50,788 nucleotides of DNA from positions 1-50,788 of IMG/VR virus record IMGVR_UViG_3300044638_004942. One strand, 5' to 3'. The notes under the pieces were generated by a model, which was not told the origin of the DNA, ran no database searches, and saw only the letters and a program-made list of their open reading frames with translations. Of the stretch, positions 4,259-43,194 are shown piece by piece. Position numbers and translations under genes: made by a program. The stretch's first letter is position 1, and the number at the start of each line of letters is the position of its first letter. Source of the stretch: a virus.

Positions 4259-4263
4259 ATACT

Positions 4264-11502: not shown

Positions 11503-12183
11503 TTACTTTAATCTCGAAAAAGTATCGATATCGGTGTCGGTGTTTTCAAAGTTTCTAAAACTTTTTTTAATATCACCAGGAGAATATGCTTCAACATCAT
11601 CTTTGGTTAAAATATACTCATTTTTTCCCGACTTTTCCATATCTTCTTGTTTATCTTCAAAAAAATCGGTTAGTTTTTGATTAAATGGTCCTGAATCCAA
11701 ACTTCTCAATTCTAATTTTTCTTCAGGGGTTTTTACTCTATATTTTTCAACCTTAGTTTCAAGGTCATTTAATTTATTCATAATTGAATCCATATCAGAA
11801 AGTTTACTCTCTAAACCTTCAAGGTGCTTAAATAAATTATCAAAATATTCTTCTTGTTTTTTCTCAACATTTTGTTGTGATTTAACTAAATCAGTTATAT
11901 CAAGTTCTTTAGACTTTTTAGTTTCACCTCCAAGTTTTTCAACGTCAGGGTCAGATGAAACATCTACAGATTCAGGTGGAACATCCCCTCCAACAGGTGG
12001 TGGTGGCATTGCTCCCGCAACAGGTGGCGGTGGAACTGCTCCCGCATCAGGTGGTGGAGGAACCGCTCCTGCGTCAGGCGGTGGTGGTAATGTAGCATCT
12101 TGCTCAGTGATATAATTGTTAATACTCTTATATCTCATGACTTCATTTAAGATTTTTACGTCTATTTTCATTTTCTTATCCAT
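11503..12183 (-). CDS. Pro-rich repeat and coiled-coil protein with (I)TE leader
   Basis: 226 residues, function unknown. Residues 1-27 form a basic/helical leader ending in 'SINNYITEQD'. Residues 33-68 are four tandem nonapeptides of the PPPPDAGAV type, a flexible linker. Residues about 85-150 are a heptad-like coiled coil ('KLSDMDSIMNKLNDLETKVE'). The C-terminal 70 residues are acidic and helical. The leader resembles those of four other proteins in this window and may be a prohead-protease site (I25-T26-E27). It overlaps the preceding 74-aa ORF by 8 bases and is followed by a terminator. A scaffold-like or internal virion role is possible but not shown. An alternative start is the Met at residue 5. 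Confidence 0.75.
   Translation of the reverse strand: MDKKMKIDVKILNEVMRYKSINNYITEQDATLPPPPDAGAVPPPPDAGAVPPPPVAGAMPPPPVGGDVPPESVDVSSDPDVEKLGGETKKSKELDITDLVKSQQNVEKKQEEYFDNLFKHLEGLESKLSDMDSIMNKLNDLETKVEKYRVKTPEEKLELRSLDSGPFNQKLTDFFEDKQEDMEKSGKNEYILTKDDVEAYSPGDIKKSFRNFENTDTDIDTFSRLK
11980..12087 (-). repeat. Four tandem 27-base repeats encoding PPPPxAGAx
   Basis: Four consecutive nonapeptide units (PPPPDAGAV twice, PPPPVAGAM, PPPPVGGDV) form a proline-rich linker in the coiled-coil protein. The DNA copies differ at third positions, so the array is not freshly duplicated. Confidence 0.85.
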
Positions 12184-35728: not shown

Positions 35729-37144
35729 TTAATCAATAATTAAAGGTTCTTCATTAAAAACCGCTTTATTTTTACTAAGAACATCGTAGTTATAATTATC
35801 AAACACTATTACTTTTGTTCTACTTGAGAAGGCAATTTTATTAACACTTTTTTTATTTTTGTAATCTCTCATACCGTAAGTATTAATATAATATTTACCG
35901 TCTTCTTCGTTAAATGTTTTTAATGGTTTAATTTGGTAATTCACGCCATTTATAGTTACATCAACCCCATTCCATCTGTCCATCTTAGAACCATGAGGGT
36001 AGTAGGTAACATTATCAGAACCTACTTTATCTAAGAAATTTTTAACTGATAACCTCTCAAGCTCTAATCCGTTTTTAACCGAATCCCATTGTCTATCAAC
36101 TAACATTCTTGTGTATTCATCGTCATTTTTAAACAAGTCTGACATCCATTCAACAATATCATTAATTTCTTTACCTTCTTTTAAATCATCAAAATATTTT
36201 AGGTATAACAAACTATGTATTTCATCTTTAGTGTCAAAATAATTCATTATTGACCAATCCTCTAAAGGGTCATTTGTTTTTTCACCTATAGTATACACAC
36301 CCCGTAAACCAGGTGTAAAAATTTTATCTTGTTCATTCCAATTTTCAGGGAAAGCTTTTTCTAAAGCCTCCCTAACATTTGATGAGGTAATTCCTATAAA
36401 TGATGATAATTTTTGCTGATTTTTTAATGTGAAATTAGGGTTTTGATTATCAAAACTACTTTTATCTATATATGCCGATTGGTCTTTAAAATATATATCA
36501 TTCTTGTTAAAAATAAAATCACCATCAATACCCTCCAATTTAATTTTGTTAGGTATTGGGGATTCGTCTTTAACAGGAACTATCTTATTAAAATAATATC
36601 TTTTAGTTTTAAATTTTTCAAACAAACCTAATGTAATGTAAGTGTACTTTGTTGGGACACCTTCTATTTCATCTGACTCTGATAAAACGTCCGAATTAAT
36701 TTCGTTAATTACGAATAATTTATTTTTTTGGTTAATCATGTCAACCTCTTTGGCTTTGTATACGGGTTCTTCTGTTCCTTTATAAACAAAACTATCGTAT
36801 TTGTATGGGTTATAGGTAACCACATTATTTAATGGTTCATTTGGAATATTTTCACAAGGAAACTCACAATAATCCAATAGATTACCAATAACAAATGCGT
36901 GAACATTTTTTTGTTCAGTCTGTCTAACCATTTCTTTACCGCCTTTTCTAACTCTAAATTCAACATCACCTAATTTAACATAATCCGCGTGTAAAAATAC
37001 TTTATCATCATATCTAACTGAAAAAGTATGTTTATGTAAATTATAATAAACCATAACTCTATCACCAATATGTTGTTTTTCTTCATTATTTGTGACAGTT
37101 TCAAGAATCATTTTCTTTTGTCTTTCTGTAATTAATATGTTCAT
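35729..37144 (-). CDS. Protein with (I)TE leader, duplicated N-terminal domain and PD-(D/E)XK-like C-terminus
   Basis: 471 residues. The start 'MNILITERQKKMI' resembles that of the adjacent 98-aa protein and carries a possible prohead-protease site (I5-T6-E7). Residues 26-135 appear to contain two related units ('MVYYNLHKHTFSVRYDDK' and 'VTYNPYKYDSFVYKGTEE'). The C-terminus has E363, D395 in 'NGVDVTING' and 'YQIKP' (Q404, K406), the spacing of a PD-(D/E)XK nuclease fold with Gln in place of the second acid. The same motif set ends the superoxide dismutase fusion at 40506-42044. It overlaps its upstream neighbour by 4 bases (ATGA). The real function is unknown; an inactive nuclease-like fold is possible. 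Confidence 0.7.
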   Translation of the reverse strand: MNILITERQKKMILETVTNNEEKQHIGDRVMVYYNLHKHTFSVRYDDKVFLHADYVKLGDVEFRVRKGGKEMVRQTEQKNVHAFVIGNLLDYCEFPCENIPNEPLNNVVTYNPYKYDSFVYKGTEEPVYKAKEVDMINQKNKLFVINEINSDVLSESDEIEGVPTKYTYITLGLFEKFKTKRYYFNKIVPVKDESPIPNKIKLEGIDGDFIFNKNDIYFKDQSAYIDKSSFDNQNPNFTLKNQQKLSSFIGITSSNVREALEKAFPENWNEQDKIFTPGLRGVYTIGEKTNDPLEDWSIMNYFDTKDEIHSLLYLKYFDDLKEGKEINDIVEWMSDLFKNDDEYTRMLVDRQWDSVKNGLELERLSVKNFLDKVGSDNVTYYPHGSKMDRWNGVDVTINGVNYQIKPLKTFNEEDGKYYINTYGMRDYKNKKSVNKIAFSSRTKVIVFDNYNYDVLSKNKAVFNEEPLIID

Positions 37145-37437
37145 AACTCTCTTTTACTTTCTTTAAACCCTCTTTTTAGTTTATCATTATATGCTCCCGA
37201 CACAACCATTAAAAAGTCAAGTCTTTTAAACTTAATATTAGGATATCTACTTATAAATATAGTACTAACTCTTTGTGTTACCCAATTTTCATATACCCCA
37301 AAATTGTCGGGTTTATTACCTGGACCACCACGTTTAATATCATTATTCAAATGATGAATAACATAATCAACAAGGTCACTTATTTCGTATAATCTTCTTA
37401 ATACCTCTATTTGAGATTCTGTTATTAGTATTTTCAT
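37141..37437 (-). CDS. Small hypothetical protein with (I)TE leader
   Basis: 98 residues, no family recognised. It starts 'MKILITESQIEVLRRLYEI', nearly the same leader as the next gene's 'MNILITERQ'. The middle 'DYVIHHLNNDIKRGGPGNKP' and the basic C-terminus suggest a small helical nucleic-acid-associated protein, but nothing specific. It is tied to both neighbours: TAATG with the HNH gene upstream and ATGA with the nuclease-like gene downstream. Confidence 0.65.
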   Translation of the reverse strand: MKILITESQIEVLRRLYEISDLVDYVIHHLNNDIKRGGPGNKPDNFGVYENWVTQRVSTIFISRYPNIKFKRLDFLMVVSGAYNDKLKRGFKESKREL

Positions 37438-38138
37438 TATATTTTATTTCCTTTCTTTAAATTATCTTCCGCCCATAATGGTTGAAGATTTGTATAATGA
37501 CAAAGTTTATAAATCTCTTCTTCAGTTTTAGCTGAAGATAACGGAATAATATGGTCAATGTGAATATGTTTTCCCAGTAAATCCCAAGACATCCCCTCAA
37601 CAAACTTACTCTCTAAATAACTTTTTAATTCGTTAGGAGTTAAACCTATTAATTCATAAGTCGAGTTGTTTTTATTTACATTTTTTAATGTAAGATAGTA
37701 ATTTGTTCTGGTTCTAATATTTTTCCATAATTTATATATTGGGTCAATTATTTTCCTTTTTTTATCGTAGTCAGTCATATAAGTTGTATTTTTTTTATTC
37801 CATTTTTTCTTATATTCTTTAATTTTTTCTTTATTTTTTAAATAATAAACATTAGCACTTTTTTTCTTTTTTTCAGGATTATTTTTCAACCAGATAGACG
37901 ATAAAATATTAGATTTTTCTCGATTATTATCATACCATTTTTTCTTACTAATTTTACGAGATTCTTTAGTTAATTGGTTATATTGGATAAAATATTCTTT
38001 ATTTTCAGTATATCTTTTTTTTGATTCAATTTTCCTACATTCTTTACAAGACGACCTTAATCCATCTTTTGATTTTTTTTCCACACCAAAATAGGTAAAT
38101 TCTTTACCAATATTACATATTTTACATATTTTTATCAT
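37437..38138 (-). mobile_element. Free-standing HNH homing endonuclease
   Basis: 233-residue coding gene. The N-terminal zinc element (C5, C8, C31, C34) is followed by a very Lys-rich helical stretch and a C-terminal HNH core: 'HIHIDHIIPLSSAKTEEEIY' and 'NLQPLWAEDNLKKGNK' (His, His, Asn, Asn pattern of the betaBetaAlpha-metal fold). It probably cuts phage DNA at homing sites. It overlaps both neighbours by one or four bases (ATGA at its start, TAATG at its end), so it is embedded without disturbing either gene. Its extreme Lys/Asn/Tyr bias differs from its neighbours, indicating independent arrival. Confidence 0.85.
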
Positions 38139-38712: not shown

Positions 38713-40488
38713 TTGGATAATATAAACACAGGAAGTACAATCAATTTGATTGAACAAAAAGCGTTGTCGATACTTGACACGTATTCAGGTGCTAACAATT
38801 ATATTCTGAAATTAAAATTTCAAAAGGAAACTAACAAAAAGTTTTACCCCACAAGAGCTCAATCTGAATACATTATAAATTTTCATGAAACTTCACCTAA
38901 GGTCGCAAAAAAATGGGTTGACTTAGACCCCTATTTTGCAAAGAAAATTGCTGATGAAAAATTATACACCGAAATCCCTAAAGAAGTTTGGGTTGAGAAA
39001 CTTTTAGCGGAGAAGGAAAAATCTTATCATGTTTGGGGGAAAGTTCTTTCAGGAGAAACTATTCATGACTTTTGGTTACCTAAAGGGGCGTTACTTAAAA
39101 CTCATAAGACTGAGAAGGTAGAAATTGATTATTCTAAATACGACCATAGACCACCACTTACTCATCAAAAACTCGCAATTGAAAAATTAGCGGGGTCAAA
39201 ACGTTTTATTTTAGCCGATGATATGGGATTAGGCAAGACGACATCCACAATTATTGCTGCGTTAGAAACAAGTGCTAAGAAAATATTAATTATTTGTCCC
39301 GCATCATTAAAGATTAACTGGCAACGAGAAATTGAGAACTACACAGATAGAAGTGTTTATATTGCGGAAGGGAAACACTTCTCAACAGAACACGATTTTG
39401 TAATAGTTAATTACGACATCCTAAAGAATTTTTACGATTTAAAAGACAAGGAGAATTCTCTAATTACCAAAAGTAACTTTGAACTAATCATAATTGATGA
39501 GGCTCATTATATTCAGAACGGTCAAGCCCAACGAACCAAATTAGTTAATAGTTTTGTTAAAAGTGTGGATAAACTTTGGTTGTTAACAGGAACACCCATG
39601 ACCTCACGACCAATGAATTATTATAATCTATTGTTCTTAATAGAAAGCCCTGTTGCTCAGAATTGGATGGCATACGCAATCCGTTATTGTCAAGGATATC
39701 AATTCAAGGCGGGTAACCGTAAGATTTGGAATGTTAGTGGGGCGTCTAATTTGGAAGAGTTGAGAGATAGGACTTCTCGACAAGTTTTACGAAGATTAAA
39801 AACAGAGGTGTTAGATTTACCTGACAAAATCATTTCACCAATTTATTTGAGATTAAAATCAAAATTATATGAAGGCCTGATGGGGGAATATTATGATTGG
39901 TATAAAAATAAAAAAGAAGAATCCTCATCATTAACCGTGCAATTTTCTAAACTAATGAAAGTTAGACAAGTTATTGCCGAAGAAAAAATAAATGATACAA
40001 TTGAGCTAGCTCAAAACATTATTGACCAAGATAAGAAAGTCATAATTTTCACAAATTTTACAGATACATTACAAAAAATACATAGTCACTTTGGGAAACA
40101 ATCCGTTTATTTAGACGGGTCTTGCACCAAACCACAAAGACAATATGCCGTTGACCAATTTCAAGAGAATGATAAAATAAAAGTCTTTGTTGGGAACTTA
40201 AGGGCTGCGGGAGTTGGTATTACACTAACTGCTGGTGAAGCGGTTATTATGAACGATTTGTCATTTGTTCCATCTGACCACGACCAAGCTCAAGACAGGG
40301 CATATCGTTACGGACAAAAAAATAGTGTCTCAGTTTATTACCCAATTTTTGAGAATACAATTGAAGGTGTTATCTACGATATGTTATCTAAAAAGAAGAA
40401 TATTATTGATACCGTAATGGGTGATAACATAGAAGACAAGGGTGATTTTGTTGAGTTGTTAATGAATAAGATTAATAATGTGAGTTAG
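38713..40488 (+). CDS. SNF2-family helicase/translocase
   Basis: 591 residues. The N-terminal 140 residues are basic and helical, followed by a two-lobe SNF2 ATPase: Walker A 'DDMGLGKTTST' (169-179), motif Ia 'LIICPASLKINWQREI', DEAH at 262-265, 'LLTGTPMTSRP' (motif III), and 'DQAQDRAYRYGQ' (motif VI). The compact form without an insertion resembles SMARCAL1/ZRANB3-like annealing helicases and phage SNF2 proteins, and may remodel forks or recombination intermediates in the place of T4 UvsW. No ATG is available: an in-frame TAA precedes TTG 38713. A second TTG twelve codons in follows an AGGAAG, so the exact start is uncertain. Confidence 0.88.
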   Translation: MDNINTGSTINLIEQKALSILDTYSGANNYILKLKFQKETNKKFYPTRAQSEYIINFHETSPKVAKKWVDLDPYFAKKIADEKLYTEIPKEVWVEKLLAEKEKSYHVWGKVLSGETIHDFWLPKGALLKTHKTEKVEIDYSKYDHRPPLTHQKLAIEKLAGSKRFILADDMGLGKTTSTIIAALETSAKKILIICPASLKINWQREIENYTDRSVYIAEGKHFSTEHDFVIVNYDILKNFYDLKDKENSLITKSNFELIIIDEAHYIQNGQAQRTKLVNSFVKSVDKLWLLTGTPMTSRPMNYYNLLFLIESPVAQNWMAYAIRYCQGYQFKAGNRKIWNVSGASNLEELRDRTSRQVLRRLKTEVLDLPDKIISPIYLRLKSKLYEGLMGEYYDWYKNKKEESSSLTVQFSKLMKVRQVIAEEKINDTIELAQNIIDQDKKVIIFTNFTDTLQKIHSHFGKQSVYLDGSCTKPQRQYAVDQFQENDKIKVFVGNLRAAGVGITLTAGEAVIMNDLSFVPSDHDQAQDRAYRYGQKNSVSVYYPIFENTIEGVIYDMLSKKKNIIDTVMGDNIEDKGDFVELLMNKINNVS

Positions 40489-40493
40489 TTTCA

Positions 40494-40500
40494 TATTTAT
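40494..40500 (+). promoter_or_regulatory. Candidate promoter motif for the superoxide dismutase fusion
   Basis: CATATTTATATAATATG on the plus strand, with the motif ending 5 bases before the ATG at 40506, in a 17-base intergenic gap. Only the sense orientation is present. Confidence 0.4.
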
Positions 40501-40505
40501 ATAAT

Positions 40506-42044
40506 ATGAAAAAAATACAAGAAAAGATTAACATAATTACAGAACAGTTAATCGTAGAGGAAAAAAAAGACAACCAAAAACTTTTTTTGACCGAAATGAA
40601 AAAAATAGGTATTGAAAAATTACCTTACGCCTACTCATCACTTAAACAATTTATTGATGCGGAAACAATGGAATACCATTATAACAAACATTATAAAGGT
40701 TACGTTGACAAATTAAATTCCGCACTATCTAAAAAGGATTATGGTGATTTAGAGTTAGAAGACATTATCAAATCAATTGGTAAGTATGATAAGACAATAA
40801 GAAATAATGCTGGTGGAGCATTTAACCACGCATTATTTTGGAAGATGTTATCCCCAAAGACACAAACACCAAATGGTGATATCTTAGATAAGATAAAGAA
40901 AGACTTCGAAACATTCCAAAAATTTAAATCCAAATTTGAAGAGGTTTGTAAAGACCGTTTTGGTTCAGGGTGGGTTTGGTTAGTATTAACTAATCGTAAT
41001 ACTCTAAAGATTGTCTCAACACCAAACCAAGATAACCCATTAATGAATGTTGTTGAGAATGGGGGTTACCCTATTTTAGGGTTAGACTTATGGGAACATG
41101 CCTATTATTTAAAATACAGAAATAAAAAAGATGAATATATTCAGAATTTTTGGAAGTGTGTTAATTGGAAGTTTGTGAATCAATTATTAGGGATGAGGTT
41201 AAAGAAAAAAATGGATGAGTCTATTTCATTGAGAGAAGTTTTATCTGAGGGTAAATCTGAAAAATGTAGTCGAGAAATGAATGAGGCAATAAAATTTGTT
41301 TTTAACATTAATCCAAAAGTTAAAAATACTTTTAGATATGGTATTGAAAAGATACTACAAGAAATCTATCCCGATAACTATTATGGTCAAAATGAATATG
41401 GTGAAGGTCAAATGTCGGGTATCTATGATTTAGAAACTGAGGGCAGGTCGGTGATTAACAAACTTAACACCAATTATACTTGTTTTTGTATTCTATTAAC
41501 GGATATTAACAAAGTTATGAGACACGAAGGTAATCCCGAAATTAAAATTATTGGGTTAAAACCTTTTGAACAAATTAGTGAGACCAAAAAATTTGTTAAG
41601 AAATTAGAAGAATATAAATCAAGAATCTTTACCCCACAATCGGGAACATTTCAAAATTTAATGACGACTTTAGGAATCACTCACGACATGGGAGGTAAAA
41701 CCGAAGATTATGCGGTTGTTTTGTTGAAAAAACAATTTGGGGATGACAATGTAGAACAAATTGGTGAGTTAGGGAACAAAGAGGACATGATTGGGGGTAT
41801 CGACTGTAAAATAATTGTTGATGGAAAGACAAATACCGCACAAATAAAACCATTTAGTCGAATCAAACAAGAAGAAGGTAAAATCACCGTATTAGATACA
41901 GGACAAGTTAAAAAATACTCTACTGATTGGATGGTATTCACCAAAAAAAATAAAGAAGTATTAATTTTCAGTAATAAACGGGTGAAGATAACTCAAGGAG
42001 TTTATGTTTTCCATGAAGAAGATTTGATTTATACTTTAAATTGA
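40506..42044 (+). CDS. Manganese superoxide dismutase fused to PD-(D/E)XK-like domain
   Basis: 512 residues. Residues 38-230 are a full Fe/Mn superoxide dismutase: ligands H58 ('TMEYHYNKHYKGYV'), H108 ('NNAGGAFNHALFW'), D194 and H198 ('LGLDLWEHAYYLKY'). The Gly pair before H108 and Q175 in 'STPNQDNPLM' are manganese-type. It should convert superoxide to peroxide and oxygen. Residues 240-380 are helical and unknown. Residues 395-512 carry E400, D433 ('GGIDCKIIVDG') and 'QIKP' (Q446, K448), a restriction-endonuclease-like set also seen at the end of the 35729-37144 protein. The first 32 residues contain I11-T12-E13 and L28-T29-E30, possible prohead-protease sites. It stands between helicase and neck genes, in the late region. 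Confidence 0.88.
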   Translation: MKKIQEKINIITEQLIVEEKKDNQKLFLTEMKKIGIEKLPYAYSSLKQFIDAETMEYHYNKHYKGYVDKLNSALSKKDYGDLELEDIIKSIGKYDKTIRNNAGGAFNHALFWKMLSPKTQTPNGDILDKIKKDFETFQKFKSKFEEVCKDRFGSGWVWLVLTNRNTLKIVSTPNQDNPLMNVVENGGYPILGLDLWEHAYYLKYRNKKDEYIQNFWKCVNWKFVNQLLGMRLKKKMDESISLREVLSEGKSEKCSREMNEAIKFVFNINPKVKNTFRYGIEKILQEIYPDNYYGQNEYGEGQMSGIYDLETEGRSVINKLNTNYTCFCILLTDINKVMRHEGNPEIKIIGLKPFEQISETKKFVKKLEEYKSRIFTPQSGTFQNLMTTLGITHDMGGKTEDYAVVLLKKQFGDDNVEQIGELGNKEDMIGGIDCKIIVDGKTNTAQIKPFSRIKQEEGKITVLDTGQVKKYSTDWMVFTKKNKEVLIFSNKRVKITQGVYVFHEEDLIYTLN

Positions 42045-42066: not shown

Positions 42067-43194
42067 ATGGCAGTTATAGCAGAACCAGAAAGAAGTCAAT
42101 TATACACAAGACTAAAACACTTGTTAGGAGCACCACTTAGAAGTGTTGAGCTCGAGGATGAGATGTTAGATTCATTACTTGCTCTATCTATTGAGGATTA
42201 TTCTCAATATGTCCAAGATTGGTTAATCGAATCCCAATGGACATCGTTATACAATCTTAATTTAGATACTCAATCATTATCAAAAGCGTTTATCACAAAA
42301 AGTTTAACTTACGAAGAAAGATATACTTATGCGTATTCTAAAATTGTTGGTTTACAGGCCGGAGGAGATTCTGTTTTAAAGAAAGATTATATACAATTAG
42401 TTAGAAATCAACAAATGTATGAAATTCCTGCTGGAAGAGAAATTAATGAATTATTATGGTTTTCTCCCGCAACGTTAAATAACATTATGTTCGACCCATG
42501 GTCTTTCGGAGCGTTAGGTGCTGGCGGCGGATTAGGTGGAGGAGGTGGTCTTGCTCAAGGAGGAGGTATGGCTGGAGGTTACTTTATGATGCCCGCTTTT
42601 GACATGTTATTGAGAATGCAAGAAATTAATATCCAAAGAAGAATGATTGCAGGTGATTTAACATATAAAATCACCGCATTACCTAATGGTAAAAAAGCAA
42701 TTCATTTAATGAATACACCTGGAGGTAAATTTGATTTTGGTAATGGTACTATGACAAAAGGTAGGGTTTGGTATCACTATTATGATGTTGAAGGTGCGGA
42801 TAGAGATAAATGTCTAAAAGATAATCCTGACATTATTAAATTACCATCAGATGTTCCTTTTGATAAAATTGATTGGGTAGATTTAAATAATCCTTCACAA
42901 ATATGGATTCGTAGATGGTTCTTCGCTTATGCGAAAGAAGCGTTATCAAGAGTTAGAGGTAAATTTAGTGGAAATATTAAAACACCTGAAAGTGAAATAA
43001 CTATGGATTACGCATCATTGGCAACTGAAGCCAAAGATGAAAAGACAAAGTTAATTGAAGAACTTATTGGTGCTGAAGGTAGGTTAACAAGATTAAAACC
43101 TGAAAAAGTTATGGAACGAGAGGCGTTACTTGCGGAAAACTTAAACAAACAGAAAAAATTTACGGCAATGCCGAGACAAATATATGTAATCTAA
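42067..43194 (+). CDS. Putative neck / head completion structural protein
   Basis: 375 residues. The N-terminal helical part ('LKHLLGAPLRSVELEDEMLD') is adaptor-like. A Gly-rich loop of about 30 residues near 150-178 ('GALGAGGGLGGGGGLAQGGG') precedes a beta-rich part and a helical C-terminus ending 'FTAMPRQIYVI'. I associate this arrangement with T4-like neck (gp13-type) proteins, but cannot align it by eye. It overlaps the next gene by one base (TAATG) and has a TATTTAT motif, supporting late expression. A virion role is likely; the exact one is open. Confidence 0.6.
   Translation: MAVIAEPERSQLYTRLKHLLGAPLRSVELEDEMLDSLLALSIEDYSQYVQDWLIESQWTSLYNLNLDTQSLSKAFITKSLTYEERYTYAYSKIVGLQAGGDSVLKKDYIQLVRNQQMYEIPAGREINELLWFSPATLNNIMFDPWSFGALGAGGGLGGGGGLAQGGGMAGGYFMMPAFDMLLRMQEINIQRRMIAGDLTYKITALPNGKKAIHLMNTPGGKFDFGNGTMTKGRVWYHYYDVEGADRDKCLKDNPDIIKLPSDVPFDKIDWVDLNNPSQIWIRRWFFAYAKEALSRVRGKFSGNIKTPESEITMDYASLATEAKDEKTKLIEELIGAEGRLTRLKPEKVMEREALLAENLNKQKKFTAMPRQIYVI

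Follow-up and report, generated by a model that had tools for sequence, protein, structure and literature searches.

A manganese-type superoxide dismutase fused to a predicted PD-(D/E)XK nuclease in large T4-like phages: a candidate capsid-targeted cargo polyprotein

Results

A single gene joins a superoxide dismutase to a nuclease-like domain

The virus sequence analysed here (IMG/VR record IMGVR_UViG_3300044638_004942, positions 1 to 50,788; hereafter the window, 50,788 nucleotides in full) contains an open reading frame (ORF) that encodes both a superoxide dismutase (SOD) and a predicted nuclease. The frame contains no internal stops, and its parts are as follows:

40506-42044, + strand: fusion ORF, ATG start, 512 residues; leader, SOD, linker, then helical and PD-(D/E)XK domain
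40506-40595, + strand: N-terminal leader, residues 1-30, predicted disordered
40611-41183, + strand: Fe/Mn superoxide dismutase, residues 36-226, with Mn-type signatures and four metal ligands
41184-41264, + strand: linker, residues 227-253, with a low predicted local distance difference test score (pLDDT) at 233-251
41265-41642, + strand: helical part of the C-terminal domain, with invariant GRS..N..NTNY
41643-42041, + strand: PD-(D/E)XK-like fold, with E400, D433, Q446 and K448 invariant

In the SOD half, Pfam detects two domains well past the cut-off, Sod_Fe_N (residues 36-116, E 6e-23) and Sod_Fe_C (residues 122-226, E 4e-39), and phmmer aligns residues 37-226 to solved MnSODs (best 1gv3, E 8e-58). 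This alignment identifies the metal ligands as H58, H108, D194 and H198, and the sequence has the Gly-Gly pair (residues 103-104) as well as the Mn-type Gln, which is Q175 of NQDNP; ligands, Gly-Gly and Q175 are all nearly invariant across the family, which upholds the claim of an earlier, sequence-only reading of the window that these signatures are intact. A preference for manganese is predicted from Gln175 and the Gly-Gly pair only. In a tree of SODs, those at this locus cluster as their own group regardless of the partner domain, and share no more than 47% identity with the cellular SODs found, which were sampled with two short peptide patterns. The nearest cellular SOD is that of Fluviicola (Bacteroidota), on a long and weakly supported branch and with this limited sampling, so we claim no host.

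Because sequence searches of the C-terminal half (Pfam, PHROGs and PDB) gave nothing usable, structural comparison was needed. The AlphaFold2 model of residues 254-512, built with 45 relatives, is confident (pLDDT 88.5, predicted template modelling (TM) score 0.81), and resolves into a helical part (254 to ~379) followed by a nuclease fold (~380-512). Foldseek against PDB placed the homing enzyme I-Ssp6803I and archaeal Hjc resolvases at the top, with probabilities of 0.9-1.0 but E values no better than 0.01-0.1, in alignments that cover some 130 columns and have a TM-score by target of about 0.45; against viral models, PD-(D/E)XK proteins and resolvases were among the matches. The model and these matches support assignment of the domain to the PD-(D/E)XK-like fold, as a predicted nuclease. 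The E...D...QxK set noticed in the sequence-only reading is real, as E400...D433...Q446-x-K448 is invariant in 45 sequences. That reading had also assigned a PD-(D/E)XK-like fold to the C-terminal 120 residues: the fold stands, and the size does not, since the unit spans 254-512 and includes the helical part. Structure prediction had been proposed there as a check, and it comes out in favour of the nuclease fold.

The fusion is widespread among large phages

A scan with the C-terminal half returned 47 contigs, 43 of which carry the SOD and the C-terminal domain in a single frame; a wider scan kept 80 loci, with a SOD at 55 of them. Clustering at 85% identity leaves 21 lineages with the fusion in one frame, and both halves are under strong purifying selection, with pairwise ratios of nonsynonymous to synonymous substitution (dN/dS) of 0.02-0.10. 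The SOD-nuclease fusion is thus a real, single gene, widespread in large T4-like water phages. It was not found in the 84,980 bacterial and archaeal genomes searched.

Could the two halves have been joined by assembly or a frameshift? Relatives with a SOD and no nuclease, or a nuclease and no SOD, do occur, as such an artefact would have it, and the sequence-only reading had pointed to a possible assembly join at 41200-41700. Independent contigs from at least 21 lineages less than 85% identical to one another show the two halves in frame, however, and the artefact is refuted. The same lineages answer the question, raised alongside, of whether other phages share the architecture.

The sequence type is already on record, under a name that covers the SOD half only: UniProt A0A6J5L953 ('superoxide dismutase [uncultured Caudovirales phage]', 501 residues) is a full-length homologue, 50% identical in the Foldseek alignment, and essentially the same protein. 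It is nonetheless undescribed. We found no published description of a SOD-nuclease fusion, or of phage cargo polyproteins, in the open-licence literature, in agreement with the initial impression that no such fusion had been described. As confirmed by the ORF, Pfam, the fold comparison and the relatives, the fusion of a Mn SOD and a nuclease-like domain is as first proposed.

A conserved locus with exchangeable modules

Gene order around the fusion is conserved among relatives (SNF2-like helicase, fusion, neck gene, DNA polymerase), and a paralogue of the nuclease unit lies nearby:

38713-40488, + strand: SNF2-like helicase, conserved upstream neighbour
42067-43194, + strand: neck or head-tail adaptor-like gene, conserved downstream neighbour
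35729-37144, - strand: paralogue, with leader MNILITERQ, a Phage_L5_gp82 part, VLSE before S, and a helical/PD-(D/E)XK domain

A census anchored on the neck gene covered 80 loci, redundant ones included, and found SOD plus nuclease at 42, SOD without a recognisable nuclease at 24, nuclease only at 12 and neither at two. The class with a SOD and without this nuclease is diverse: some proteins consist of leader and SOD alone, in others the SOD is preceded by a likely metallopeptidase domain, which has an HExxH motif in the form AHEWVHEW or AHEWTHEY (L240 3840-4964, L254 3863-4966, L232 2864-4978, L225 2002-3525, L247 2877-4970), and in others still the SOD is followed by other domains. In locus L244, the SOD is followed by a diverged nuclease-like part (hhalign E 1e-4), and the third domain is preceded, within the chain, by a stretch that resembles a leader, KKIIITEEQKKLIEA. 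The third domain of L232 matches this nuclease only weakly, and that of L247, considered as a nuclease relative, proved to be an unrelated domain with no detectable kinship. The last domain of L225 also stands adjacent as separate 149-residue proteins with their own leader, MKIIISESQYKLIKEN.

Other forms lack the SOD. Proteins of the L093 type keep 'NEMKKIEIEKL' and continue directly with 'KSIISEGKSERC', an arrangement which looks like an in-frame removal of the SOD; one 309-residue form retains the pre-SOD linker as a deletion scar, and in the shortest forms the leader is just 14 residues long, ending in LSE or LNE. The locus is modular, with SOD and nuclease each exchanged or lost freely.

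The E-D-QxK set and the nuclease fold are also kept in the window paralogue, which is related to the nuclease unit of the fusion (BLASTP E 5e-6, hhalign E 2e-8), and in a stand-alone homologue of a 735-kb phage. The Phage_L5_gp82 part occurs without the nuclease in some relatives, and BFVD A0A8D9CCA0 (1113 residues, uncultured marine phage) contains the helical and nuclease unit inside its chain, with a TM-score by query of 0.82.

Alternatively, the nuclease part could be mobile, akin to a homing endonuclease, and have invaded the SOD gene and its neighbours, given that the best PDB match is the homing enzyme I-Ssp6803I, that the paralogue sits in a gene 3-4 kb away in some lineages only, and that the window itself contains true homing and HNH endonuclease genes. 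We consider this improbable: the domain occupies the same syntenic place in lineages as divergent as about 47% identity, with dN/dS of 0.04-0.10, rather than being sporadically present; it is an in-frame domain with no intron or intein seen; and it also occurs without SOD, behind a similar leader. Separately, HNH/endonuclease VII-like genes that resemble mobile endonucleases occur at varying spots near the locus (window 37437-38138, L012 10329-11030, L250 724-1419).

Candidate cleavage sites in disordered linkers

Disorder is predicted in two linkers, residues 2-42 and 233-251, which hold six conserved glutamates; four of these (13, 30, 238 and 248) have L, I, V or, rarely, M at the -2 position. 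In the leader, the candidate sites are (I/L)xE at E13, in 17 of the 21 lineages, and (L/I/V)xE at E30, in all 21; between the domains they are E238 (LNE before S in most, MDE before S in the window) and E248 (LSE before G). The starts and ends of modules coincide with (L/I/V)xE sites. The T4 prohead protease gp21 recognises L/I-X-E and cleaves behind it, and a capsid targeting sequence can be as short as ten residues (PMC9026906); gp245 of phage SPN3US similarly cleaves after A-X-E (PMC10052503). A related phage, G001, has a Peptidase_S77 gene (E 1e-24) near a Gp23-type capsid gene, the N-terminus of whose product reads ...HLINE before ASS.

The physical fusion, together with a single invariant cysteine (C254) at the junction, might instead suggest a redox-gated nuclease, in which the SOD senses or makes a redox signal (peroxide) and through it regulates the nuclease in cis. 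C254 is invariant in SOD-less forms too, however, the modules also occur separately and in other combinations, and the linker is disordered with likely protease sites; since the two domains can exist apart and are probably released from each other by cleavage, we regard such control as very improbable.

Leader families with (L/I)xE recur on otherwise unrelated proteins (MKKIIRLTESDL.., MKIIITESQ.., MNLQENIxRI.., MKDLIRKILRE..), in many genes of G001 and the fragment G002 (L055-L080 for the two), and at 35729-37144 and 37141-37437 of the window; counts by pattern are 18 and 13, against 0-1 at internal control positions. These recurring families are a candidate signal for virion cargo, as read from their sequences. 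We found no match to the leader peptides in any paper. Among other proteins with similar starts are a WYL-domain protein (L059 5590-5982; G001 85590-85985) that begins with the leader-like MKLIGSLKSLITE before A, and proline-rich proteins (window 11503-12183 and G002 72202-72897) with the common start RY.SIN.YI(T/V)EQDATLPPPP and an xxE site.

A late-promoter-like element precedes the fusion

Two copies of the element TATTTATA flank the fusion:

40494-40501, + strand: TATTTATA, late-promoter-like element, 12 nt ahead of the fusion start codon
42045-42052, + strand: the neck gene's own TATTTATA

Copies in the window lie at 4263, 25012, 26949, 30097, 40494 and 42045, 11-50 nt before structural or leader-protein genes, and the placement depends strongly on orientation. 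Of 52 distinct regions upstream of the fusion, 29 have the exact element, against one for the reverse-oriented control, and most of the others have TATTTAT. Within 60 nt upstream, it precedes 39 ORFs in G001 and 35 in G002, versus 12 and 11 in the opposite orientation; the genes behind it include those for baseplate, tail tube, neck and scaffold and many that encode leader proteins, and it also precedes the fusion gene itself. The T4 late motif TATAAATA, of which TATTTATA is the reverse complement, is not enriched in the window, and TATTTATA precedes genes on the sense strand. From its placement, TATTTATA is likely the late promoter element of this phage group.

Discussion

We think it somewhat probable that large T4-like phages express the fusion late, as a modular cargo polyprotein that is targeted to the capsid, cut by the prohead protease and delivered with the DNA. 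The N-terminal leader would act as a capsid targeting sequence, bringing the protein into the prohead, where a gp21-type protease would cleave after (L/I/V)xE at the end of the leader, before the SOD, and between SOD and nuclease. The freed Mn-SOD and PD-(D/E)XK nuclease would then accompany the DNA, first into the head and, at infection, into the host. Inside the cell, the SOD could remove superoxide during early takeover, sparing phage and host iron enzymes as well as DNA, and the nuclease could cut DNA foreign to the phage, be it that of the host, a plasmid or a rival phage. Packaging, cleavage, ejection, both enzyme activities and their targets are all inferred here.

Because the modules are separable and the (L/I/V)xE linkers conserved, the sequences suggest two cargo enzymes with one delivery leader, and not one bifunctional enzyme or redox sensor. 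The sequence-only reading had tied SOD and nuclease together functionally, or as a sensor of oxidative stress, an idea not supported by modules that separate, swap and disappear around disordered linkers with (L/I/V)xE sites; its suggestion that incoming DNA is protected is possible for the SOD part. Perhaps the idea extends further, to a multi-enzyme cargo polyprotein in which targeting leader, HExxH domain, SOD and nuclease are exchanged as modules, cut by the prohead protease and injected together, a proposal we hold tentatively, at slightly below even chances. Were it so, phages would have their own version of polyprotein processing, applied to delivered effectors.

Several points weigh against a cargo role. 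These phages are uncultured and known from sequence, and the sole hint of a virion protein is an 'ESI-MS/MS' (electrospray ionisation tandem mass spectrometry) note on the distant SOD of phage PA5oct, a label which marks confirmed structural proteins in the related phage MIJ3 (PMC6892783). The fusion gene adjoins the helicase gene as well as the neck gene. Candidate sites are not uniform: E238 has Met at -2 in the window, locus L020 lacks the E248 site, and E13 is Lys in a few relatives. Moreover, (L/I)xE is short and common in K/E/L-rich sequence, and across all G001 and G002 proteins it shows no more than a slight excess in the first 30 residues; such genome-wide N-terminal enrichment is weak, and we do not use it as proof of cargo. 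The protease gene was found in G001, and not in the 50.8-kb window or in G002, both fragments. Finally, the fusion leader gave no match above control to the leader families of G001 and G002. A thymidylate-synthase-family gene, considered for DNA modification as a guard against the nuclease, occurs in G002 only and is not informative.

Might the protein simply work uncut in the infected cell, as a bifunctional enzyme with an auxiliary metabolic SOD and a nuclease for phage recombination or Holliday-junction resolution? Hjc resolvases are among the closest solved folds, a SNF2-like helicase and a DNA polymerase are neighbours, and SOD, commonly carried by freshwater phages, has been interpreted there as relief of host oxidative stress (PMC6802176). 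Yet the neck gene is just as conserved a neighbour, and free loss and swapping of modules, (L/I/V)xE linkers and a promoter element of structural genes fit cargo better, and we judge an intracellular enzyme rather unlikely.

If the cargo polyprotein holds, these phages infect with an antioxidant enzyme and a nuclease delivered alongside their DNA, and a single locus acts as an exchangeable cargo bay. Predicting which unknown proteins travel in virions is an open problem for large phages; leader, (L/I/V)xE joints and late element would together form a readable code for virion-borne proteins. The reading of phage SODs would also shift, from metabolic helpers in infection to possible early-entry factors.

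Comparison with known systems

The C-terminal domain has its predicted fold and E-D-QxK residue order in common with I-Ssp6803I and archaeal Hjc, but differs in its additional helical part and in the lack of any Pfam or PDB sequence match. Bacterial Fe/Mn SODs, and the phage SODs of PA5oct and Vibrio phage 2.275.O, likewise have a full SOD domain with all ligands; unlike the fusion, bacterial and stand-alone phage SODs are single-domain genes. SOD is also listed among the virion-packaged enzymes of giant viruses, with Megavirus SOD as the cited case (PMC9405923). The Megavirus virion enzyme is of the Cu,Zn type, serves a virus of eukaryotic hosts and is not fused, and is thus unlike the phage fusion.

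A further parallel is with the internal head proteins of T4 (IPI, IPII, IPIII and Alt), which carry capsid targeting sequences cut by gp21. As in these proteins, the fusion leader ends near (I/L)xE, a relative has a gp21-type protease and a Gp23-type capsid, and the cargo is unrelated to head building. We treat the fusion as a variation on the idea of T4-type internal head proteins; its membership among them is unproven, given a leader that does not match the leader families above control. Whilst T4 internal proteins carry one cargo each, the fusion, for which packaging is the proposed fate, strings several enzymes together with candidate sites between them.
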